From Thermoguttaceae bacterium (GTDB taxonomy: Bacteria; Planctomycetota; Planctomycetia; Pirellulales; Thermoguttaceae): DNA of 64,000 nt. Position numbers and translations under genes: made by a program. The stretch covers positions 124,001 through 188,000 of the forward strand of contig JANXBW010000001.1 of assembly GCA_025060325.1 (NCBI GenBank), read 5' to 3'. The notes beneath the pieces were generated by a model. That model made no database searches. It saw nothing but the letters and a program-made list of their open reading frames with translations, and had not been told where the DNA came from. Positions 47,594 to 59,430 of the stretch are shown here, piece after piece. Each line of letters begins with the position of its first letter. The first letter of the stretch is position 1.

Positions 47594-48763
47594 ATGAATT
47601 GCGGAGTAACAACTTTTGGTTTCGAGATCATTTCCACGGATCCCCAGACTCATGCACGCCGTGGGCGCATGAGGACGGCCCATGGCGACGTGGATACTCC
47701 CGCCTTTATGCCGGTGGGAAGTCGGGCTGCCATCAAAGGCTGTCTTCCCGAGCTTGTCCGTCGCACCGGCACTCAAATGATTCTGAGCAACACGTATCAC
47801 CTGCTACTTCGCCCAGGGGTAGAGGTGGTGGCAGCCGTGGGCGGTCTTCACCGCTTTATGGGGTGGGACGGACCAATCCTGACCGATAGCGGAGGATTCC
47901 AAGTTTACAGCCTGGGCGATTTGGTTCGGCTTGACGACAAGGGCGTCTGGTTTCGGTCACATATCGACGGTCAGCCGGTGGAGCTAACTCCGGAACGAGT
48001 CATTGAGGTCCAGCGGGTCCTGGGGAGCGACATCGGCATGGTCTTGGACCATGTGGTGCCGCTTCCGGCGGAGATAGCCCAGTTGGCTGAAGCCACCCGC
48101 CGAACCATCGCTTGGGCAAAGCGCTCGGTTGAGGCAACCGCGCCGGGACAGATCGTCTTCGGCATCATCCAAGGTGGCCTGGACAAGCAACTCCGTGAAC
48201 AGTGTCTGCGAGAACTTACGGCGATGGATTTCCCCGGCTACGCCTTGGGGGGATTAAGCGTCGGAGAAACGCCAGAGGAAATGTACCAAGTAGTGGAGGC
48301 TTTCGGCCCACGGATGCCGCCCGAAAAGCCTCGATATCTGATGGGTGTGGGACGGCCCCAGGACATCCTAAGGGCCATTGCCGCTGGGATCGATCTTTTT
48401 GACTGCGTGATCCCAACAAGAAACGGGCGAAACGCCACGGCCTTCACCTGGGCCGGCAAGCTTCGACTTCGGAATGCAAAATACCGTTGCGACCCCCGGC
48501 CAATCGAGGAGGGATGCTTTTGCCCTGCCTGCGCCGATGGGCGTTTTTCCCGGGCATACCTCCGACATCTGTTCCTCGTCGGAGAACTCCTGGGACCGGT
48601 GCTGGTCTCGCTGCACAATGTGTACTACTATCAGAAATTAATGGCAGAATGCCGCCGAGCCATCGATCGGGGGGTGTTTCGTGAATTCGCTCAGGATGCG
48701 ATTGCCCGGTTGGAAAGGCAGATTCAGGAACAACCGGAGACCGGAGGACCATCCCAAGGGTAG
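47594..48763 (+). CDS. tgt: tRNA-guanine transglycosylase (queuine tRNA-ribosyltransferase)
   Basis: Tgt swaps guanine 34 for the queuosine precursor in tRNAs with GUN anticodons. The 389-residue protein has the typical N-terminus (RRGRMRTAHGDVDTPAFMPVG). It also shows the substrate aspartate in LTDSGGFQVYSL (near 97), FGIIQGG, the nucleophile region DCVIPTRNGRNA (near 270), and the zinc site CFCPACADGRFSRAYLRHL. It starts the conserved tgt-yajC-secDF order found in many bacteria and is followed by yajC. Confidence 0.95.
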   Translation: MNCGVTTFGFEIISTDPQTHARRGRMRTAHGDVDTPAFMPVGSRAAIKGCLPELVRRTGTQMILSNTYHLLLRPGVEVVAAVGGLHRFMGWDGPILTDSGGFQVYSLGDLVRLDDKGVWFRSHIDGQPVELTPERVIEVQRVLGSDIGMVLDHVVPLPAEIAQLAEATRRTIAWAKRSVEATAPGQIVFGIIQGGLDKQLREQCLRELTAMDFPGYALGGLSVGETPEEMYQVVEAFGPRMPPEKPRYLMGVGRPQDILRAIAAGIDLFDCVIPTRNGRNATAFTWAGKLRLRNAKYRCDPRPIEEGCFCPACADGRFSRAYLRHLFLVGELLGPVLVSLHNVYYYQKLMAECRRAIDRGVFREFAQDAIARLERQIQEQPETGGPSQG

Positions 48764-48957
48764 GACACGGTCCCCGCTGAGTGCGGCCTAATCTTGCCGG
48801 TCCTCACAACTTACCTTACCATTTCCATTTTGCGGCGCGAGGCTTTCCCAGAACGGAGGCTCGTTTGCGTGACTTGGGCGCCGCTAATGTTGTCGCCGTG
48901 GTGGCGGAGGCCCTAAACCGGCCCTCGCAGTTAAGCTTGTTGAATGAGACCCATGGG

Positions 48958-49356
48958 ATGATCAAACCTGTGGCGGATCTATGCTGGGTAGCCCACTGGG
49001 CGCAGCCGGTGCTAGCTCAGGAGCAGCCACCGGCCGCAGAAGGACCTAGCCTCTTTGGTTTGCTGTGGCCTATTGTGGCGATCATTTTTCTTTTTTGGCT
49101 GCTCCTGATTCGCCCGCAGCAAAAGGAGCGGGCAAAGATTGCCCAAATGTTGGCGAACTTGAAGAAGAACGACCGGGTCATAACGATCGGCGGTATTTAC
49201 GGCGTCGTCACTAATATCCGGCGGGAGGCCGACGAGGTCACCCTCAAAGTCGACGACAGCTCTAATGTTCGGATCAAAGTCAGCTTAGGGGCGATTGCCC
49301 GAGTGCTGGGACAGGAAGGCGAATCGGAAGAGTCTGGCGAAAAGAAAAGCACTTGA
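48958..49356 (+). CDS. yajC: Sec translocon accessory protein YajC
   Basis: YajC associates with SecDF in the inner membrane. The hallmark is the single membrane helix and stop-transfer motif (LLWPIVAIIFLFWLLLIRPQQ), followed by a small cytoplasmic domain (KNDRVITIGGIYGVVTNIRR, VTLKVDDSSNVRIKVS). The N-terminal segment before the helix (WAQPVLAQEQPPAAEG) is a short linker. The frame is open back to 48781, but the ATG at 48958 (132 residues) fits the family length better. It lies between tgt and secDF. Confidence 0.88.
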   Translation: MIKPVADLCWVAHWAQPVLAQEQPPAAEGPSLFGLLWPIVAIIFLFWLLLIRPQQKERAKIAQMLANLKKNDRVITIGGIYGVVTNIRREADEVTLKVDDSSNVRIKVSLGAIARVLGQEGESEESGEKKST

Positions 49357-49859
49357 AATTAAAAGCGATTCACAACCCCGTTGTCGGCCACTGGCCTGAT
49401 TTGACGCGACGCTGGACCCGTACGTCTCCTTCGCGAAGGCTGAGATCCGAGTTTTTCCTCCGACTTGCTTCGGTCCTTGTGCGGGGGCAAGGCTTGCGGC
49501 CGGGTTCAGAATGGCAATCGCGGGACTTGGAAGGCCGAAATGGGTGAGCGGCTCAGACTTACCGGCGGAAAAAGCCGGAGAGTGTACCAAACCTGGGGGC
49601 GCAACACGAGTTTTGCAACGCGCTCACTTTAATTTAGTCGCTTGTTATTAGCGTCCCGGGTTACGCGGCCTTGGTTTAAATGAGGTGGTCGGGGGGAACT
49701 GTATCGGACTTAGCGCTTGGGCAGAAAGTTAATCACTTTTTTCTGCCCTCTAGCCGCTATTTTGAAGCTCCGAAACCCCCGGGCGGGGGCGGTTTCAAAC
49801 GGGTGTTAAAAGGGGGAAGTCGGGATCGACGCTTTACCCCCGATTGGACCGGTTTTTAG
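49357..49859. other. Gap between yajC and secDF
   Basis: About 500 bases (720 if the later secDF start is right) without a recognisable gene. It contains the two strong hairpins near 49719-49796. The length suggests that secDF has its own promoter or a structured leader rather than simple cotranscription with yajC. Confidence 0.4.
49719..49748 (+). terminator. Hairpin between yajC and secDF
   Basis: A perfect 9-bp inverted repeat, GGGCAGAAA and TTTCTGCCC, is separated by 12 bases. A second, GAAACC with GGTTTC around a CCC/GGG core, follows at 49772-49796. They lie in a 500-base gap where the neighbouring genes of this conserved set would normally be close. Either a terminator after yajC or a leader structure for secDF is possible; no T-run follows. 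Confidence 0.35.
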
Positions 49860-50078
49860 TTGCCAAAAAAGTTACCCAGCGGTGCACGGTCTCGGGGCAA
49901 CCAAACGCCTCAGGAGCAGGTGCGACTGCCTGCAAAGGGAGCGGCATACCTCCGCCGATCTGGGGTGAGGTTTGAGGACGCAAGAGTTTTTCGAATGAGA
50001 ATTACATTGCCACTTCTGCAAGTAAGCACCATGTGCCGAAGTCGGGTTTGGATTGCTACTCAAACTCAGGTTAGGGCA

Positions 50079-53000
50079 ATGGATGCCAGCGCTATTGATA
50101 ACCGTACAAAGGCATCATTGTGGGCGAAACGCAACCTCGGTCTTTCAACTCCTACGGCTTTTGTTGCCTTACTTGGGGCAATTTTCGTAGCAGTTGCGGG
50201 TGCGGCCGGGGCTGAGAGCTTCGCTCAGACACAGCTTCCTCTCGCCGTTGCAACTTTAGCGGTCGGCCAGGCACAAACGGGGGAAGGTGACACCCAGGCC
50301 AAGGCACCGGAATCGGCCCCTCAAGCATACCAAGAAAAAACCTCAACCCGGAACGGCGCCGAGCAAACCCCTCCCCCGGATGCCCCGGGCCAAGCCGTGG
50401 CCGCTGGGGGTTCTCCGTCTGCCGCGCCACAAAGCGCAGCCAGCCCGGGCCAGGGGGCGGCTTCGGCCCCCACCCCCGCGGCGGAAACTTCAGCTCCCCC
50501 GTCCCCACAGGGAGCCCAGCAGAGTCCCGAAGCTCAAGCTCCTCAAGCTTCGGGCGAAAGCGAAAGGCCGCAGGCTCCTCCTGCTGGGGAGGCCGGAGCC
50601 CAGCCGCCCCCCTCTAGTGGACCACGCCAGGCCGGCCAGCCCCAAGGACCAAGCGGTCCGACGGAAGGGGAGGCCCTGCGGCACTCGGGTGACTTACGCC
50701 AATCGCCCTGGCTTAAGTTGGTCGTGACAGCTTTGGTCCTAGTACTTGGGCTGGGCTTAGCACGGGTTTTGGCGGTCCAATGGCGAGTGCCGGAGTTCCA
50801 GGGCCGATTTGCGGTGGTGCTGCTTTCGTTCTTCGCCGGTCTTGCGATTGTGGTAATGGGCTGGCCGCCTCGCCGCGGCATCGACTTACGAGGAGGTGTG
50901 ATTCTTGTTTATGAAATCGAAGATCAGCCGGTCCAGACCACGCCAGGAGAAGAGCCCACCCAAGCCGCGGCTGGCGCTGTGGACATGGACAGGCTAATCC
51001 AAGCGATTAGCCGGCGGGTTAACCCCGGCGGGGTGCTGGAGGTAACAATCCGGCCTCTTGGTGACACCCAGATCGAGGTGATCATCCCTGAGGCCGACCG
51101 GGAGGAGGTCGAGAGGCTAAAGCGAAAGATATCGTCCGCTGGGACCCTGGAATTCCGCATTCTGGCTAATAACCGCGATCATCAGCCCCTCATTGAACAG
51201 GCCTTGGCGAAAGAGGACCGAGTTCTCCGCGACGCCGAGGGGCGAATTCTTGCTTGGTGGGTGCCGATTGCCCGCGGGCAGGAAGAGAACTTTCCTTATC
51301 CGGAAATTGCCACTCGCAAGCGGGTGGATCCGCGAACAAGGTACGAATTTACCGAAGTCCTCGTGGTCAAAGATCCCTTTGACGTCACCGGTGCTTATCT
51401 TGTGCACGCGGGGCCGGGATTTGACCGCACCGGGGCACCAGCTGTGTACTTTACTTTTAACTCTGAAGGGGGTATGCGCTTCGGCGGTCTGACCGGCAAC
51501 AACCTGCCGGAAACGGGCCAGGTGGAATTCACTCGCAAACTGGGGATTATCTTAGACGGATATCTCTACTCGGCGCCGGCTATTCGAGACACGATTTTTA
51601 CCCACGGTGAGATCACTGGTCGCTTTACCCGGGAGGAGGTTCAGGACCTTGTTGATATCCTAAATGCCGGAAGTTTGCCGGCGCGGCTATCCGAACAGCC
51701 GGTGAGCGAGCTGGTAATAGGACCTACCCTTGGCCGAGACACCGTGCAACGGGGGATGTGGGCGATGGTGCTCTCGGCCGTCCTCGTATTTGTTTTCATG
51801 ATCGTGTACTATCGTTTTGCCGGGGCAGTAGCTTGCCTGGGACTTATTCAGACGGTCCTTTTGATCCTGGCAATCATGATTTCTATCCGGGCAGCATTCA
51901 CCCTGCCTGGGTTCGCTGGTCTAGTGTTGACGTTAGGTATGGCGGTCGACGCTAACGTGCTCATTTACGAGCGAATCCGAGAAGAGATTAGAAAGGGCGC
52001 CTCGCTGCGGATGGCTATTCGCAACGGTTTTGAGCGGGCCATGTCAGCCATCGTTGACGCCAACCTAACGACTCTGATTACCGCGACCGTCCTTTACGTC
52101 ATTGGCCGCGACCAAATCCGCGGGTTTGCCGTGACTTTGTGGCTCGGCGTGGTGGTCAGCATGTTTGCAATGCTTTACTGCTGCCGGGTGATTATTGAAC
52201 TGGCCGAAAGACAACGGTGGATCACCCGCCTGAGCATGCTCCAGATTATTGGTACGCCGCGGTTTCCGTTTATGCAAAAAGCCCCGATTGCGATAGGGGT
52301 GTCTGCGGCCCTTATTGTTCTGGGACTCATTGCGGTATTTGTTCGGGGCCGGGGACTTCTGGATATCGACTTTACCGGTGGCGTATCGATCGAACTGGAA
52401 TTTGTAGAGCCGCAGGACATCGCTCAGGTGCGGGCGCGACTGAGCTCGGAAGAAGTGGGCCTAATGGACTTGGCCATTAGCGACGTTCGGCGGCTTGATG
52501 ACCCCGTACCCGGACGGCACTTCATCGTCAACACATCTGGTGTCCGGGGGATGAATCCTGATGCGCCTCCGGGAGAGGTATTTGCCGAGGTGCAGCGCCG
52601 GCTCAAACAAGTCTTTGGAAGGCAGCTTGCCCACTATTCGGTAAATTACACCCTTCTTGAAGAGTCCCAAGCTATCTCCACGTGGCGGCCGGCGGGTTTA
52701 CAACCGCAGAGCTTGCAATCGGATCCGAGGACTGGGGACAAACACCTAATTGGCCAGGCCGGGTGGCCACTCATCTTTGCCGGGTTGCTCCCCGGAGCAA
52801 CGCAGACTGCCCAGGAGGCCACGACGACTCAACCGCAAGGGGCATCCACATCTGGCGAAGTGCCAGCCTCTGCCCCGCCTGGCGAAAGCAACCAACCAGC
52901 CCAGCCACTGGCCGGGCAAGTCCAGCCCCCGTCCCCCGGCCCGGAGGCAGCGCCCACAACAAGCCAGGAAGCCAAGACGGAAACACCTGCCCAAGCGGAG

Positions 53001-53891
53001 AAACCGGCACAGCCCTCTGGTCCCAAAACTCGGGCTAAGTTGACTTTTGGTCAGGCAGTCGTTTACGAAACAGTCGACCAATTGGTCACTCAGGCTATCG
53101 AGCAAGAACGGGCCCAGGGGCGAATTGACCGCTTCATTCCCTACCGGATTTCCCCCGTCACCGCAGGGGGCGACGTTGAGGTGGCCTCGACAGAGTGGAA
53201 TATCGAACTCGACTTGGCTGGCCCAGTTGCCAAAGAAGTGCTTGACCTCATCGTTCAGCGGGTCAACGATACGCCTTACTTCCCCTCAATAAATACAGTT
53301 GGGGGAGCCGTGGCATCCGGAACACGAATCGTGGGGATTGCGGCTGTTCTCAGCAGCTTGGTGTTTATCATCGCCTACATTTGGGTACGGTTTCAGCGAG
53401 TCATCTACGGAATAGCGGCTGTGGTGGCTTTGGTGCACGACGTCCTGATAACGCTCGGGGCCATCGCCGCCAGCGCTTTTCTGGCCAATTTGCTGGGATT
53501 CCTGCTTATCAGTGAGTTCAAGATTAGCCTCTCGGTGTTGGCCGCTTTCCTGACGATTATCGGTTACTCGCTCAATGACACCATTGTGGTCTTTGACCGC
53601 ATTCGCGAGGTTAAAGGCCGAGCACCCCGGCTGACGCCCGAAATGGTCGACAGAAGCATCAACGAGACGCTCAGCCGAACGATCCTTACTTCGTTAACGA
53701 CACTTCTTGTGGTAGTGGTGCTTTACATAGGCGGCGGTCCGGCAATACATGCGTTTGCCTATTCGATCTTGGTGGGGATCGTGGTAGGGACGTACAGCTC
53801 GATCTTCATCGCCTCGCCGCTCCTTGTATGGTTCTCTCAGTGGCAGGAGCGCCGCCAAGCCCGGGCACGAATTTCCGCGGTAAGAGCATGA
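50079..53891 (+). CDS. secDF: Fused protein translocase SecDF with long Pro/Ala-rich inserts
   Basis: SecD and SecF, which use the proton gradient to pull secreted proteins across the membrane, are fused here. The SecD half has RRGIDLRGGVILVYEI, the P1 head domain, and the membrane motif GMAVDANVLIYERIREE. The SecF half has LLDIDFTGGVSIELEF and GYSLNDTIVVFDRIRE. Two low-complexity inserts rich in Pro, Ala, Gln and Ser stand out, one (about 130 residues) just before the first SecD helix and one (about 80) in the SecF periplasmic loop. The ATG at 50079 is chosen because a hydrophobic, signal-like segment follows soon after. The frame is open to a TTG at 49860. The stop overlaps murQ by 4 bp. 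Confidence 0.9.
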   Translation: MDASAIDNRTKASLWAKRNLGLSTPTAFVALLGAIFVAVAGAAGAESFAQTQLPLAVATLAVGQAQTGEGDTQAKAPESAPQAYQEKTSTRNGAEQTPPPDAPGQAVAAGGSPSAAPQSAASPGQGAASAPTPAAETSAPPSPQGAQQSPEAQAPQASGESERPQAPPAGEAGAQPPPSSGPRQAGQPQGPSGPTEGEALRHSGDLRQSPWLKLVVTALVLVLGLGLARVLAVQWRVPEFQGRFAVVLLSFFAGLAIVVMGWPPRRGIDLRGGVILVYEIEDQPVQTTPGEEPTQAAAGAVDMDRLIQAISRRVNPGGVLEVTIRPLGDTQIEVIIPEADREEVERLKRKISSAGTLEFRILANNRDHQPLIEQALAKEDRVLRDAEGRILAWWVPIARGQEENFPYPEIATRKRVDPRTRYEFTEVLVVKDPFDVTGAYLVHAGPGFDRTGAPAVYFTFNSEGGMRFGGLTGNNLPETGQVEFTRKLGIILDGYLYSAPAIRDTIFTHGEITGRFTREEVQDLVDILNAGSLPARLSEQPVSELVIGPTLGRDTVQRGMWAMVLSAVLVFVFMIVYYRFAGAVACLGLIQTVLLILAIMISIRAAFTLPGFAGLVLTLGMAVDANVLIYERIREEIRKGASLRMAIRNGFERAMSAIVDANLTTLITATVLYVIGRDQIRGFAVTLWLGVVVSMFAMLYCCRVIIELAERQRWITRLSMLQIIGTPRFPFMQKAPIAIGVSAALIVLGLIAVFVRGRGLLDIDFTGGVSIELEFVEPQDIAQVRARLSSEEVGLMDLAISDVRRLDDPVPGRHFIVNTSGVRGMNPDAPPGEVFAEVQRRLKQVFGRQLAHYSVNYTLLEESQAISTWRPAGLQPQSLQSDPRTGDKHLIGQAGWPLIFAGLLPGATQTAQEATTTQPQGASTSGEVPASAPPGESNQPAQPLAGQVQPPSPGPEAAPTTSQEAKTETPAQAEKPAQPSGPKTRAKLTFGQAVVYETVDQLVTQAIEQERAQGRIDRFIPYRISPVTAGGDVEVASTEWNIELDLAGPVAKEVLDLIVQRVNDTPYFPSINTVGGAVASGTRIVGIAAVLSSLVFIIAYIWVRFQRVIYGIAAVVALVHDVLITLGAIAASAFLANLLGFLLISEFKISLSVLAAFLTIIGYSLNDTIVVFDRIREVKGRAPRLTPEMVDRSINETLSRTILTSLTTLLVVVVLYIGGGPAIHAFAYSILVGIVVGTYSSIFIASPLLVWFSQWQERRQARARISAVRA

Positions 53892-54844
53892 GCGATCTCG
53901 GCCGACTGACCACAGAGACACCCAATCCCGCGTCGGCGCGATTGGACGAACTTTCGCCCATTGAGATTGTCCGCCTAATGAACGCGGAAGATGCCAAGGT
54001 GGCCCCTGCCGTCGGCCGCGAGGCAGAAAAGATCGCCACGGCGATCGAGGTCATCGCTGAGCGATTGCGTGGCGGTGGCCGATTAATTTACTTGGGGGCA
54101 GGCACGTCCGGGCGCCTAGGGGTGATTGATGCCGCCGAGTGCCCTCCGACCTTCAGTACCCCCCCTGAAATGGTCGTGGGTGTAATTGCCGGTGGCCCAC
54201 AGGCGATGTTTCGCTCGGTCGAAGGCGCCGAGGACATCGGACCGGCAGCCGTGGACGATCTGAAACGAATCGGTCTTGGTTCGCGCGATGTCCTTGTGGG
54301 AATTGCCACTAGTGGGCGTACGCCGTATGTTGTTGCCGGACTGCGCTATGCCCGTGAAGTGGGAGCCTTTGCCATCGGACTAACGTGTAACGAAGGCGCG
54401 GACCTTGAAAAGGAGTGCGACTTGGTGATTGCCCCGGTGGTGGGACCAGAGGTGCTGGCCGGTTCCACACGGCTAAAGGCTGGCACCGCTACGAAGATGG
54501 TCCTCAATATGTTGACAACTGGGGCAATGGTCCGCCTGGGGAAGACGTATGGCAATCTTATGGTCGACTTGCGGGCGACCAATTCCAAGCTGATGGACCG
54601 GGCAAGGCGTATCGTTTCGGCAGTTGCTGGAATAAGCCGCCAGGAAGCGGAAGAGCTACTAAGACAGTGCGACGGGGAAGTGAAAACGGCGATCGTTATG
54701 CACCGCTTCAGGATTTCTCCCCACGAGGCTCGCCGCCATCTGGCAACATTTGAGGGTCGACTCCGGCAGGCATTGGAAAACCCGCCGTCCTTGGCCGCCG
54801 AACCGTCCCAGTCCACAACCGCTTCCGCGTCTACAAACCCATAA
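53888..54844 (+). CDS. murQ: N-acetylmuramic acid 6-phosphate etherase
   Basis: MurQ removes the lactyl ether from MurNAc-6-phosphate, giving GlcNAc-6-phosphate and D-lactate. The 318-residue protein shows the SIS-domain LIYLGAGTSGRLGVIDAAECPPTF with catalytic E84, VEGAED with the second glutamate, and GIATSGRTPYVVAGLRYA. Its ATG overlaps the secDF stop (ATGA), which indicates translational coupling to an otherwise unrelated gene. The following kinase gene completes a peptidoglycan recycling pair. It is cytoplasmic. Confidence 0.94.
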   Translation: MSDLGRLTTETPNPASARLDELSPIEIVRLMNAEDAKVAPAVGREAEKIATAIEVIAERLRGGGRLIYLGAGTSGRLGVIDAAECPPTFSTPPEMVVGVIAGGPQAMFRSVEGAEDIGPAAVDDLKRIGLGSRDVLVGIATSGRTPYVVAGLRYAREVGAFAIGLTCNEGADLEKECDLVIAPVVGPEVLAGSTRLKAGTATKMVLNMLTTGAMVRLGKTYGNLMVDLRATNSKLMDRARRIVSAVAGISRQEAEELLRQCDGEVKTAIVMHRFRISPHEARRHLATFEGRLRQALENPPSLAAEPSQSTTASASTNP

Positions 54845-55062
54845 GACTGACCTCTCTGGGTAGATGTGGATCGCGCGTTGGCGGCAGCTTTTGCAGGGTT
54901 GCGGATCCGCGTAAACGGAACCATCTTTAGGGGCAGAATGCGGCGGGCGAAGTGATCAATTCCGCCGGCAGTCGTACCTGGGGAATAGGTTCTGCCTGAT
55001 CTGCGACGATGGACCGCCTGGGCCCGGCTTTCCCCTATGGTTGTGAACCCTCGAAGGAGCCA

Positions 55063-56091
55063 ATGAGTTTTGGTCAGAATAGCACACAGCCTCCATGGGT
55101 GGTGCTTGTAGACGCCGGGGGATCGAAAACGGCTGCCGCCTTGGCTTCTGTCGATAGCGGTCGGGTCACCATCCGGTCTCGCGGCCAATCAGGACCGGGG
55201 AATCCGGTAGCGGCAGGCTGGCAAATTGGTTGCCGCAACTGGGAGGAGGCCATCAAGACGGCAGGGGAAGGGTTGGGACAATTCTCCCAGTGGAGAACCG
55301 ACGTAAGCTACGTTGTCCTGGCGGCAGCTGGGGCGGGCCGTCCCGAAACGGCTAGCGAAGCCCTCAGGTGGTGTGCCCAGCAATTTCCCCGAGCCACTTC
55401 GGCCGTTTTGCCGGACATCGCCGCGGTGTTAGCCGCCGTAAATGCGGATGGAGCTGGGATCGCTTTGGTGGCCGGAACTGGCTCGTTGGCTTGGGGGGTT
55501 AATCGTACCGGCCAAGTCGCCCGCTGTGGCGGTTGGGGCTTTTTTCTGGGAGACGAAGGTGGCGCCGCATGGATTGGCCGCGAAGCCTTAGTTGCCGTGA
55601 CGAAAGCTCGTGACGGGTTGCTGTCTCCCACCTTGTTGACTCATGAGATTCTCCGGACGATAGGTCTTCCATCGCCAAGTGAGCTGGTAAACTGGGTCCA
55701 AAATGCATGGCAGCAACCGCGAACAATTGCTGCCCTGGCGCAAATCGTGGTAAAGTGTGCAAGTGCGGGCGATGAGGTCGCGGCGGAAATCCTAAACCGG
55801 GGATCCGATTATTTGGCTCAACTTGCCGCTTGTGTGGCGCATAAATTGGGGTGGAGGCCGCCGGATCTCTCGGTTGCGCTGGGAGGCGGACTTTTCGTCC
55901 ACGTCCCGGCTTACCGGGAAAAAGTAGTCCAAAAGCTAAACGAAAGGGGCTGGGTTCCAAGCTCCCAACTAGCGGAAGACCCGCTTTTGGGGGCAGCGCG
56001 GATTGCGGAGAACCTCTTGGTAACTTACAAGTGGAGGCACTGGAGTTTTGCGGCGATCTATCGCCCCAACCATAAATCGCCCCAACCATGA
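55063..56091 (+). CDS. BadF/BcrA-type sugar kinase, N-acetylglucosamine kinase-like
   Basis: This 342-residue ASKHA-fold protein starts (from the ATG at 55063) with the phosphate-1 motif VLVDAGGSKTAAALA. It continues with ALVAGTGSLAWGV, a phosphate-2-like loop, then GGWGFFLGDEGGAAWIG and the adenosine motif SVALGGGLF. This pattern fits GlcNAc or MurNAc/GlcNAc kinases of the BadF/BadG family, and the neighbour murQ supports a role in amino-sugar recycling. The frame is open to 55009, but GAAGGAGCC before 55063 supports the later start. The end of the gene contains a 14-bp direct repeat that forms its last codons. Confidence 0.82.
   Translation: MSFGQNSTQPPWVVLVDAGGSKTAAALASVDSGRVTIRSRGQSGPGNPVAAGWQIGCRNWEEAIKTAGEGLGQFSQWRTDVSYVVLAAAGAGRPETASEALRWCAQQFPRATSAVLPDIAAVLAAVNADGAGIALVAGTGSLAWGVNRTGQVARCGGWGFFLGDEGGAAWIGREALVAVTKARDGLLSPTLLTHEILRTIGLPSPSELVNWVQNAWQQPRTIAALAQIVVKCASAGDEVAAEILNRGSDYLAQLAACVAHKLGWRPPDLSVALGGGLFVHVPAYREKVVQKLNERGWVPSSQLAEDPLLGAARIAENLLVTYKWRHWSFAAIYRPNHKSPQP
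56060..56089 (+). repeat. 14-bp direct repeat at the kinase gene end
   Basis: ATCGCCCCAACCAT occurs at 56060-56073 and again at 56076-56089 with a period of 16. Because 16 is not a multiple of three, the copies are read in different frames (YRPNH then SPQP), and the second leads into the stop codon. This looks like a recent slippage event extending the C-terminus. Confidence 0.9.
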
Positions 56092-56534
56092 AAGGAATAA
56101 AGTGGGGACGGGCCGGATTGGTTAAGGGCCAAATGGCAGGAACACACGCCGGCTTAAGTTTGCGACACCCAATCGGCCCGCTGGGCTGCGAGGACAAGCA
56201 CAGCAAGGGCTTCTTGCCGTAGGCGATGATTCGCAGCTCGAATCGTTTGGGAGATTCCCCCGCCGGCAAGATTTAGCCACGAAGGGCAGCGTAAACAAAA
56301 TGGTTCGAGGCACGATCTGGATTTAGCCGGAACCACGAGGGATGAGAAAATCAAACTTCGTGGATTAGTTGCCAACAGTCCCCAGCTATGGAGGAGCGTT
56401 AGGAAACCAGCCGATTTGGCCCGGGCCAATCGCCATCAAGCGTGCGTGATTTGCGCCAGGGTGGAGAAACTGGTAAAGGTAAGACGGGATAAGGTTTACG
56501 TTTGCAACTTCATCAGCTGAAGGAGTCTCTCTTG
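56092..56534. other. Intergenic region, no gene seen
   Basis: About 440 bases between the kinase and aldolase-domain genes on the same strand. No convincing frame, RNA gene or terminator was seen. A purine-rich stretch (CTGAAGGAGTC) before 56535 can serve as the ribosome-binding site of the next gene. Confidence 0.4.
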
Positions 56535-57503
56535 ATGCCTGCCCCTTGGATTACGTATCGACCGGAGTTGAAGGTTCTTGATTGCACCATCCGCGACGGC
56601 GGTTTAGTGAACAATCACCATTTTGACGATGATTTTGTTCGCGCTTTGTATCAGACGTGTGCCGCCGCGGGTATTGATTACATGGAAATCGGCTATCGCA
56701 ATTCCAAGAAAATTTTCGCCCCCGGTAAGCATGGAAAGTGGATGTTTTGCGAAGAAGACGATATTCGCCGGATCATCGGCGACGAGCCACCCGGCGTCAA
56801 GCTTTCCGTGATGATCGACGCCGGCAAATCCGACTGGCGGACAGACATCCCGCCCAAGTCCCAGAGCATCGTGGACATGGTGCGGGTAGCCTTTTATGCG
56901 CATCAGGTCTCCGAAGCCGTGGAAATGATCAAACACGCCGCCGACTGTGGCTACGAGGTTTCTGCTAATTTGATGGCTGTTTCCCGCAACACCGAAACCG
57001 AAATCGACCAGGTGCTTGAGCTTCTCGTGGAAACACCGGCACAAGTGCTCGTAGTTGTGGACAGTTTTGGCTCGCTTTATATGGAGCAAGTGGAGCTGTT
57101 GGTCAAGAAGTATCTGGCTTTTGCCCGGCCCAAAGGTAAAGAGGTAGGCATCCACACTCATAACAATCAACAGCTTGCATTCGCTAACACCATTGAGGCA
57201 ATCATCCACGGAGCTAGCAGACTGGATGCCTCGATGGGTGGCCTGGGACGCGGGGCTGGCAACTGTCCGATGGAACTCCTCCTCGGTTTCCTCCGCAATC
57301 CCAAGTTCAAAATCCGTTACGTTTACGAGTTTTTGGAAAAGTACATCGAACCCCTCCGGCAAAAGTGGGAGTGGGGACCGTATCCGCAATATTACATCAC
57401 TGGGCAGCTGAACCTCCACCCAAGAGCCGCCATCGAGGCTCGCTCGTCGGACCGCAAGAACTGCTATGTTGAGTTTTATGATCGGGTTTCTACAGATATC
57501 TGA
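56535..57503 (+). CDS. HMGL/DRE-TIM-type aldolase-domain protein
   Basis: The 322-residue product has the DRE-TIM metallolyase signatures LDCTIRDGG (near 15-23) and the metal-binding HTHNN (near 206), on a TIM barrel (GIDYMEIGYR, DSFGSLYMEQVE, MGGLGRGAGNC). Characterised relatives include 4-hydroxy-2-oxovalerate aldolase and HMG-CoA lyase. This shorter branch is usually called an aldolase catalytic domain protein and its substrate is not established. The ATG at 56535 with AAGGAG upstream is preferred to one 11 codons earlier. The neighbours do not suggest a pathway. Confidence 0.8.
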   Translation: MPAPWITYRPELKVLDCTIRDGGLVNNHHFDDDFVRALYQTCAAAGIDYMEIGYRNSKKIFAPGKHGKWMFCEEDDIRRIIGDEPPGVKLSVMIDAGKSDWRTDIPPKSQSIVDMVRVAFYAHQVSEAVEMIKHAADCGYEVSANLMAVSRNTETEIDQVLELLVETPAQVLVVVDSFGSLYMEQVELLVKKYLAFARPKGKEVGIHTHNNQQLAFANTIEAIIHGASRLDASMGGLGRGAGNCPMELLLGFLRNPKFKIRYVYEFLEKYIEPLRQKWEWGPYPQYYITGQLNLHPRAAIEARSSDRKNCYVEFYDRVSTDI

Positions 57504-57912: not shown

Positions 57913-57984
57913 GCCAGCGTAGCTCAATGGCAGAGCACAGCATTCGTAATGCTGCGGTTGTGGGTTCAAGTCCCACCGCTGGCT
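57913..57984 (+). tRNA. tRNA-Thr (anticodon CGU)
   Basis: A complete cloverleaf can be drawn: acceptor GCCAGCG with CGCTGGC, D-stem GCTC/GAGC, anticodon stem CAGCA/TGCTG with loop TTCGTAA, and T-stem GTGGG/CCCAC with loop TTCAAGT. The anticodon CGT reads ACG (threonine). All stems are perfect, the length is 72 and the CCA end is not encoded. It lies 120 bp upstream of the TPR/alpha-CTD gene. Confidence 0.96.
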
Positions 57985-58104
57985 CTCGGAATCCTGCCTT
58001 GTGGATGCACTTCACGCGACTTGCCCTAACATCGTTCACGTTGCTCGTTCCGCGTAGGGAGCTACCCACCCGAAAAGGGGTTTGCGAAAGGAGGCTCGGT
58101 TTCG

Positions 58105-59430
58105 ATGCTGCAAACTGCTCAAGCGATTGATTTTCGGCAAATACTGGTCTTTGGCGGAGTGTTTGGCCCGCGGGAAATTGATCAAATCTGCTGGGGTATC
58201 TCATCCGATCCTCACAATCTTCGGTTCTTCCGCGAGGCAGTTCGACAGCTGGAAGCAAGCGAGGACGAAAGTCCGGCGCTCAATGTTCGGCTCGGGGTAT
58301 CCCTTTATCTTTTGGGCGAATATCGGCGGGCTCTAGAGGTTTTAAAGAAGGGTGATAACGGAGCACTGGCCTGGTTTTATCGGGGCCAGGCTTTGATGGG
58401 TCTTGGGCAATTCCAGGAGGCTGTGGAAGCTTTCGACACGGCAGCGCGTGCCGGGTTTGATCAGGACCGCTGCCATTTGGCGGCCGTTGAGGCCTTACGA
58501 CAGGCCGGCAAACTTGCCGAAGCTCAGGCGCGGCTAGAACTTGTTTCTCCCCAAGGACGGCAATCCGCTGAGTATTTGTACCAGAAGGCATGCAACCTGC
58601 GACACTTGTCTGGGGATCCTGCAGAGATCATCTCGCTCTTGGAACAAGCCGTGGCTGTTGATCCGCATCATCCGGGAGCACTTTTTGGTCTAGCTTTGGA
58701 GTGTGATCGGTACGGCAACGATGAAGAAGCGTTTGAGCTATACGAGCGAGCAGCGTCGCGATTCCCGCCCCATGTCGGTGCTCTTCTTAACTTAGGACTT
58801 ATTTACGAGGACCGCGGGCAACTAGACAAAGCTGTGGAGTGCTACAAACGCGTTTTGGACGCTTATCCCAACAACGAGCGTGCCCGGCTCTTTTTGAAGG
58901 ATGTCGAAGGCGCTCGGGATCAGTATGAGGACGAAGAGATCCGCGGACGTCACGACAAGCTTGAGCAGCTCTTTAGGATCCCAGTGAGCGATTTTGAACT
59001 TTCCGTGCGAGCACGGAATTGCCTGCAGCGGATGGGCATCGTGACCTTGGGGGACTTGTGCCGCTGCACTGAGCAGGAGTTGCTGGCGAGCAAGAACTTT
59101 GGCGAAACCAGCCTCCAAGAAATTAAGGAGATGCTTGCCTCCAAAGGATTGCGATTGGGAATGCTCGCTGGCGAAAAGCGGCCGCCGGCCTGGTTGGACA
59201 TCTCCAGCCTTACGCCCGATCAACAGGCCCTCCTCAATCGCCCGGTGAGCGATTTGAATCTCTCGGTTCGTGCGCGGAAGTGCATGGCTCGCCTGGGCAT
59301 TAACACTTTGGGCGACCTTATCCGTTATAGCGCGGACGAGCTTTTGGAGTGCAAGAATTTTGGTGTGACAAGTCTTAACGAAGTCCGCGATAAGCTAGCA
59401 AGCCTGGGGCTAAAACTCCGCGGAGAATAA
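58105..59430 (+). CDS. TPR protein with two RNA polymerase alpha C-terminal domains
   Basis: The first 280 residues of this 441-residue protein are TPR-like helical repeats (ALAWFYRGQALMGLGQFQEA, GALLNLGLIYEDRGQLDKA). Two copies of the RpoA C-terminal domain follow: CTD1 at about 291-352 and CTD2 at about 380-439. Numbered as in E. coli alpha, the DNA-contact residues R265, C269, G296, S299 and E302 are kept in both copies. N268 is kept only in CTD1 (lysine in CTD2), and K298 is threonine in both. There is no RNA polymerase assembly domain. A role as a DNA-binding or polymerase-associated adaptor is inferred; the family is uncharacterised as far as I know. AAAGGAGG stands 10 bases before the ATG. 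Confidence 0.85.
   Translation: MLQTAQAIDFRQILVFGGVFGPREIDQICWGISSDPHNLRFFREAVRQLEASEDESPALNVRLGVSLYLLGEYRRALEVLKKGDNGALAWFYRGQALMGLGQFQEAVEAFDTAARAGFDQDRCHLAAVEALRQAGKLAEAQARLELVSPQGRQSAEYLYQKACNLRHLSGDPAEIISLLEQAVAVDPHHPGALFGLALECDRYGNDEEAFELYERAASRFPPHVGALLNLGLIYEDRGQLDKAVECYKRVLDAYPNNERARLFLKDVEGARDQYEDEEIRGRHDKLEQLFRIPVSDFELSVRARNCLQRMGIVTLGDLCRCTEQELLASKNFGETSLQEIKEMLASKGLRLGMLAGEKRPPAWLDISSLTPDQQALLNRPVSDLNLSVRARKCMARLGINTLGDLIRYSADELLECKNFGVTSLNEVRDKLASLGLKLRGE

Follow-up and report, generated by a model that had tools for sequence, protein, structure and literature searches.

Nearly all of the Planctomycetota genomes examined, though not strictly all of them, encode a protein in which a tetratricopeptide repeat (TPR) array is followed by two C-terminal domains of the RNA polymerase alpha subunit (alpha-CTDs), and in the genomes compared the first of these, CTD1, shows stronger conservation than the alpha-CTD of RpoA itself. 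From its architecture, its spread through the phylum, the conservation of its DNA-contact residues and of positions 259 and 261, and its predicted fold, we propose that the protein is a phylum-wide alpha-CTD pair, carried outside the RNA polymerase subunits, that binds AT-rich minor-groove DNA near promoters while its TPRs hold a partner, a reading to which we assign a probability of roughly 0.5.

The protein (P0001) was found in a 64,000-nucleotide stretch of a Thermoguttaceae bacterium genome (contig JANXBW010000001.1), hereafter called the window. The gene and its parts, with the evidence that defines each, are as follows.

57913 to 57985, + strand: tRNA-Thr(CGT), the closest gene upstream of the TPR/alpha-CTD gene; we claim no functional link
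58087 to 58094, + strand: Shine-Dalgarno-like sequence AAAGGAGG, ten bases 5' of the ATG (direct sequence reading)
58105 to 59430, + strand: TPR - alpha-CTD - alpha-CTD protein P0001, 441 amino acids (ATG-started open reading frame, Pfam, full-length model)
58273 to 58872, + strand: TPR array, residues ~57 to 256 (Pfam, model helices, conservation by region)
58873 to 58977, + strand: junction helices, residues 257 to 291 (alignment, conservation by region)
58978 to 59163, + strand: CTD1, residues 292 to 353 (profile, residue alignment, fold matches)
59164 to 59214, + strand: variable inter-CTD linker (gaps between profile hits, low pLDDT in the models)
59215 to 59400, + strand: CTD2, residues 371 to 432, carrying K268 and T298 in E. 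coli numbering (Pfam, residue alignment, fold)

Profile searches bore out the original prediction of two tandem alpha-CTDs behind a TPR array with no polymerase assembly domain. The Pfam family RNA_pol_A_CTD (PF03118) matched P0001 in two stretches (E value of 2.1e-44, 149.5 bits against a cut-off of 23.8), and TPR_1, TPR_2, TPR_14 and TPR_19 all exceeded their cut-offs, identifying it as a TPR protein. The alpha N-terminal assembly family was not among the best 25 of 42 Pfam hits, and the place of the assembly domain (residues 57 to 256) is occupied by TPR families in Pfam and by helical repeats in the model. Against the rpoA equivalog TIGR02027, P0001 scored 133.6 bits, short of the cut-off of 227.8, and none of the best 25 of 39 NCBIfam models rose above its own cut-off; a separate, full RpoA is present in the same genome (locus L004). 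Solved relatives of the C-terminal part were alpha subunits only (43 sequences each at E values up to 1e-6 and 1e-5). All 24 aligned homologues matched both PF03118 and TPR models, and the architecture recurs through the phylum, which rules out chance or an annotation artefact.

The full-length AlphaFold2 model of P0001, built from 55 homologues, had a mean pLDDT of 92.4 and a pTM of 0.64 and consists of helical repeats followed by two alpha-CTDs; confidence drops at the N-terminus, at residues ~271 to 280 and in the inter-CTD linker. The CTD1 model matched the DNA-bound alpha-CTDs 9zum, 3n97 and 1lb2 with Z scores of 13.3 to 13.6, among them 9zum_E, a Caulobacter alpha-CTD on AT-rich DNA (Z 13.6, rmsd 1.9 over 76 residues), and 3n97, an alpha-CTD with sigma region 4 on UP and −35 DNA (Z 13.3). 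Foldseek on the CTD pair likewise gave alpha-CTDs. For CTD2 the match was 8hvr_K (rmsd 1.3 over 73 residues) with a Z score of 12.3, and as values below ~13 can be common among helical folds, the profile score is the firmer evidence for this domain. A fold search with the whole model returned nothing beyond generic TPR likeness.

Comparison with known proteins places P0001 nearest to, but apart from, the alpha subunit. It resembles E. coli RpoA (PF03118) in the predicted fold of its alpha-CTDs, in their DNA-contact residues and in the acidic 259/261 patch of CTD1, and its two copies equal in number the two alpha-CTDs of the alpha dimer of one polymerase. It differs from E. coli RpoA in having a TPR array and no visible assembly domain, in carrying both CTDs on one chain, in having T298, as planctomycete RpoA does, and R or K at position 267, and in the K or R at 268 of most CTD2s. 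The small stand-alone alpha-CTD of the NCBIfam model PRK07758 ("hypothetical protein") likewise lacks a polymerase body, but the model spans 95 positions without TPRs, and P0001 scored 49.2 bits against its cut-off of 115. The profiles of BREX PglW (NF033442) and of the beta' model NF011498 include an alpha-CTD-like stretch, and CTD2 weakly matches a short part of each; both describe large unrelated proteins, of which P0001 is not a member (30.6 of 990 bits and 32.3 of 1437 bits, respectively). The best natural sequence matches of the TPR part, also among its best by fold, were the TPR superhelices of O-GlcNAc transferase and SPINDLY. P0001 differs from these proteins in lacking the glycosyltransferase part, and low TM scores over the whole model leave a generic repeat likeness only.

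The original prediction had proposed looking for the protein across Planctomycetota, and its presence there was strongly confirmed. A match at an E value of 3.1e-32 or better, where RpoA or other TPR proteins give ~1e-17 or weaker, occurred by hand count in 369 of 392 Planctomycetota genomes, and a match of any strength in 391. All 31 single-contig genomes held a strong match (worst E value of 5e-58), and the 23 genomes without one were all at most 92% complete. Stretches matching PF03118, counted by hand in the 197 genomes at least 95% complete, numbered three or more in 190 genomes, two in 6 and one in 1. Three per genome is usual, with four or five in the window's order, and the places listed are consistent with a single stretch in an RpoA-sized frame plus the pair in the TPR protein. 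Among 60 near relatives a full-length match was missing in six (G482, where it was partial, G483, G495, G502, G509 and G521). When eight weak cases were searched again with PF03118, the alpha-CTD pair of genome G143 proved to be split by contig ends and G120 held a faint stretch, while this search found no pair in G521 (97% complete, 240 contigs), G473 (96%), G495, G502, G031 or G301. Since G521 and G473 are at least 95% complete, the TPR/alpha-CTD protein may not be indispensable.

The CTD1 signature pattern was found in at least 120 stretches of the species-genome collection. All 80 loci listed hold the TPR/alpha-CTD family, with a match of more than 300 residues in 64; the remaining 16 comprise ten truncated at the end of the locus and six shorter frames. 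By title they belong to Planctomycetota groups or to unnamed bacteria; the exceptions are two metagenome-assembled genomes titled Alphaproteobacteria and Proteobacteria (L133 and L150). Both of these draw one pool of Planctomycetota genomes (G531 to G536), whose matches share contig numbers and overlapping coordinates with genomes of the phylum (for example, G533:C7:51504-52847 and G003:C7:51693-52844), so the Proteobacteria titles look wrong and we rejected a spread into that group. Carriage by phages or plasmids was likewise rejected: none of 66 matching plasmid records and none of 17 matching phage records reached 80% query coverage, and the matches listed (15 and 10, respectively) cover 31 to 40% of the query, the annotated ones being RpoA.

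Residues were then compared in E. coli numbering, checked on the K-12 rpoA record, in 54 distinct homologues and 48 planctomycete RpoAs; the homologues come from strong-match genomes, so the counts lean to good copies. The two CTDs of the window align as R302/R389 (265), N305/K392 (268), C306/C393 (269), N331/N418 (294), G333/G420 (296), T335/T422 (298), S336/S423 (299) and E339/E426 (302). The residue list of the original prediction, with R265, C269, G296, S299 and E302 in both domains and N268 in CTD1 only, was thus exact, and among the listed DNA-contact residues the window's CTD1 lacks only K298 (T) and K291 (A). In the E. coli rrnB P1 complex the side chains of R265 and N294 enter the minor groove of the UP element, and K291 and K298 touch phosphates (PMC7822876); R265 has also been described elsewhere as contacting UP elements (PMC3828302).

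CTD1 carries R265, C269, N294, G296, S299 and E302 in all 54 homologues and N268 in 53; at position 291, where E. coli has K, 48 of 54 have A or S. The threonine at 298, noted in the original prediction as a difference from E. coli alpha, is indeed present in both CTDs (54/54 in CTD1, 48/54 in CTD2), yet it is no departure from the local norm, being found in 47 of 48 planctomycete RpoAs; K occupies this position in E. coli and in one cyanobacterial and one mycobacterial-type alpha. We therefore rejected a loss of DNA binding through K298T. Position 267, adjoining N268, is R or K in 54/54 CTD1s and 50/54 CTD2s and in 1 of 48 RpoAs, a gain of charge particular to the TPR/alpha-CTD protein. A basic residue at 293 is no such gain, since the K found in 54/54 CTD1s has its counterpart in an R or K in 47/48 RpoAs. 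Positions 259 and 261, which we take to be the contacts of sigma R596 and R603, are acidic in 53/54 and 54/54 CTD1s (D259 in 49/54, E261 in 54/54), in 50/54 and 18/54 CTD2s and in 41/48 and 34/48 RpoAs; as RpoA too is mostly acidic at both, CTD1 is not alone in having the patch. Of five sigma70-type tails compared from the window's own genome, three (L283, L286 and L287) keep Arg at both of the sigma places touched by the E. coli alpha-CTD.

CTD2 is the more divergent domain and, judging by its residues, is eroded in some lineages. R265 and E302 are kept in all 54 homologues, G296 and S299 in 49 each and C269 in 38, but position 268 is K or R in 48, and the five homologues without G296 (L063, L094, L097, L098 and L099) retain it in CTD1. 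The pair would thus not be two equal DNA binders, and to speak of two equivalent CTDs is too strong.

Conservation was also counted by region. Columns in which at least 90% of 55 sequences share one residue made up 31 of 62 in CTD1 and 18 of 67 in CTD2. The C-terminal half of the TPR array (residues 154 to 256) had 15 of 103 such columns and its less conserved N-terminal half 6 of 97; the junction had 3 of 35, the N-terminus 1 of 56 and the linker none of 21. Within the junction helices D266 is invariant and D276 and E277 are almost so (homologue alignment A1), while the gap between the two CTD profile hits ranges from 23 to 45 residues in 54 homologues, with a median of 28. Pairwise identity, averaged over 16 genomes for which both proteins were read, was 0.72 for CTD1, 0.55 for CTD2 and 0.61 for the RpoA alpha-CTD (0.625 without the window's genome). 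With that genome left out, 79 of 105 pairs had a higher identity in CTD1 than in the RpoA alpha-CTD, and 4 were tied. Identity to the E. coli alpha-CTD was 0.51 for CTD1 and 0.45 for planctomycete RpoA. As far as sequence comparison shows, CTD1 is under strong constraint across the phylum.

In a tree of 63 alpha-CTD sequences, which rests on 60 columns and has few firm forks, CTD1 formed one group (support 97/92), and CTD1 and CTD2 together stood apart from RpoA and the outgroups with weak support (85/89). Because of this grouping and because T298 is common to planctomycete RpoA, we infer that the tail of rpoA was probably captured once and then duplicated in tandem before the lineages sampled here diverged within the phylum.

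In the window's lineage, the RpoA alpha-CTD is losing residues at 268 and 269 (genomes G000, G477, G407 and G167; loci L004, L251, L252 and L253). The window's own RpoA (L004:1438-2472) stands alone among the 48 in its N268G and C269S changes and in having G298 and A299; among 20 further RpoAs of the same family, G477 has S268, G407 has S269 and G167 has A269 with A299, the other 17 being unaltered at positions 268 and 269. Among the RpoAs read, the erosion is confined to this lineage, and CTD1 is intact both in the window and in G167. Phylum-wide, RpoA keeps R265 in 48/48, N268 in 47/48 and C269 in 47/48, so we rejected a general loss of DNA binding by RpoA with the TPR protein as its replacement. 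We also observed a second free-standing alpha-CTD protein in the window's order, of 84 to 151 amino acids with one domain (L003:1351-1731 on contig C10 of the same genome; L271 to L282), which keeps R265, N268, C269, N294, G296, K298 and E302 in 13 of 13 cases, with T299. With RpoA eroded and the two polymerase-free proteins intact, the window's genome has good DNA-contact sets only off RpoA, which suggests a hand-over, local to the window's lineage, from RpoA to polymerase-free alpha-CTDs. Separately, one planctomycete RpoA (L053:133-1752) has an open frame of 539 amino acids where 330 to 350 is usual, either an N-terminal fusion or an overlong frame.

Neighbours were counted in 41 loci with ten seed proteins, in stretches of up to ~10 kb, with Pfam names checked on single members. 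Downstream on the same strand lay tgt in 17 loci, SpoIID in 14, ruvA, yajC and secDF in 11 each, ruvB in 6 and queH in 5. At least one of ruvA, tgt, spoIID, yajC and secDF was downstream in 26 loci, and ruvA, tgt or spoIID started within 400 bp in 25, the frames overlapping in L089. The locus-order layout omits 8 of the 41 loci, whose centre dropped out of the simple gene model. The gene is followed by ruvA-ruvB-queH-spoIID-tgt-yajC-secDF in L094, L097 and L098, by spoIID-tgt-yajC-secDF in L085, L087 and L092 (in L086 tgt is hidden by an opposite frame), and by tgt in L065 to L069 and L071. None of these neighbours was downstream in the other 15 of 41 loci, among them 12 of L070 to L084 and the window, where tgt-yajC-secDF instead lies upstream at 47594 to 53891, 4 kb before the TPR/alpha-CTD gene.

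47594 to 48763, + strand: tgt, queuine tRNA-ribosyltransferase (Pfam E value 3.8e-145)
48781 to 49356, + strand: yajC (Pfam E value 3.8e-25)
49860 to 53891, + strand: secDF, fused (Pfam SecD_SecF_C, E value 2.1e-69)

Between secDF and the gene, Pfam identified a SIS-domain protein, a BadF/BcrA-type ATPase and an HMGL-like protein (53828 to 57503); by eye, the SIS-domain protein is MurQ-like and the ATPase N-acetylglucosamine-kinase-like. The neighbour cluster is not a transcription operon and therefore neither proves nor excludes a role at promoters.

On our preferred reading, CTD1, aided by CTD2, would employ the contact residues of RNA polymerase alpha to grip AT-rich, UP-like DNA in its minor groove, and the TPR array, in place of the alpha N-terminal domain, would hold a protein partner. 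Binding of UP-like DNA by P0001 is likely, because the contact surface of CTD1 is nearly invariant and its model matches DNA-bound alpha-CTDs. At promoters the protein could serve as a detachable alpha-CTD arm, with CTD1 on the DNA beside the −35 region. The acidic 259/261 patch preserved in CTD1 would then touch sigma region 4, and the TPRs would tether RNA polymerase or a regulator; we put the odds that it acts with the polymerase at promoters at about even. Contact with CRP-type activators, as originally proposed, with sigma or with polymerase may occur, as may bridging by the TPRs to a partner and an effect on transcription. Counting against such a promoter arm are the K or R at 268 and the G296 losses in CTD2, the change of K291 to A or S in most CTD1s, and neighbours (tgt, yajC-secDF, ruvAB and spoIID) that are not transcription genes. 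More tentatively, and with rather less than even confidence, the protein might serve the whole phylum as a general transcription factor, lending a further alpha-CTD pair in trans as a TPR-held "external alpha arm" at many promoters, working beside the alpha-CTDs of the polymerase or, in the window's lineage with its eroding RpoA alpha-CTD, partly instead of them.

The conserved DNA-contact face would also suit a nucleoid-type tether, in which the CTDs sit on AT-rich DNA chromosome-wide, the TPRs fix it to a cell structure such as the Sec machinery, and transcription is not the point. We consider this unlikely. In its favour, 11 of 41 loci have yajC and secDF downstream and the window has tgt-yajC-secDF upstream, but neighbourhood need not imply joint function, and a plain tether would need none of the acidic 259/261 residues, the sigma contact of the alpha-CTD, that CTD1 so consistently keeps; this last argument is mild, as RpoA keeps the patch too. 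A repair or recombination factor working with RuvAB and using its CTDs as helix-hairpin-helix DNA grips is very improbable. Its support comes from the neighbours: ruvA follows on the same strand in 11 of 41 loci, and 6 have a ruvB-like gene downstream (both Pfam-named in L094). The order ruvABC-queA-tgt-yajC-secDF is an ancient cluster, so this adjacency may be inherited. No ruvA was seen near the gene in the other 30 loci, and the CTDs, which score so well as alpha-CTDs, hardly register as the generic helix-hairpin-helix family HHH_5 (19.1 bits, cut-off 27).

Finally, P0001 might compete with the alpha-CTDs of RpoA, docking activators or sigma and damping or redirecting activation while itself binding little DNA. 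Alpha-CTDs do act as protein docks in solved complexes among our matches (Spx, 1z3e; CAP, 1lb2), and an acidic residue occupies position 286 in 54/54 CTD1s and position 288 in 52/54, compared with 46/48 and 22/48 RpoAs, within the stretch 285 to 288 that we take to be the CRP contact. A pure dock, however, would need neither near-invariant DNA-contact residues nor an extra basic residue at 267, and we think such a competitor quite improbable.

Our search of open-access papers, covering the openly licensed PMC literature, found no description of the TPR/alpha-CTD protein, which is weak evidence of absence; in the main text of a paper on PVC signature proteins, the terms "TPR" and "tetratricopeptide" do not appear (PMC3444138). 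Transposon essentiality data exist for Planctopirus limnophila (PMC10632474). The significance of the finding lies in a phylum-wide carrier of two alpha-CTDs, of which CTD1 surpasses the RpoA domain in conservation across the genomes compared. The use of alpha-CTDs to recognise promoters is usually seen as a property of the polymerase itself; if our reading is correct, part of promoter recognition would have moved to a separate protein in Planctomycetota.
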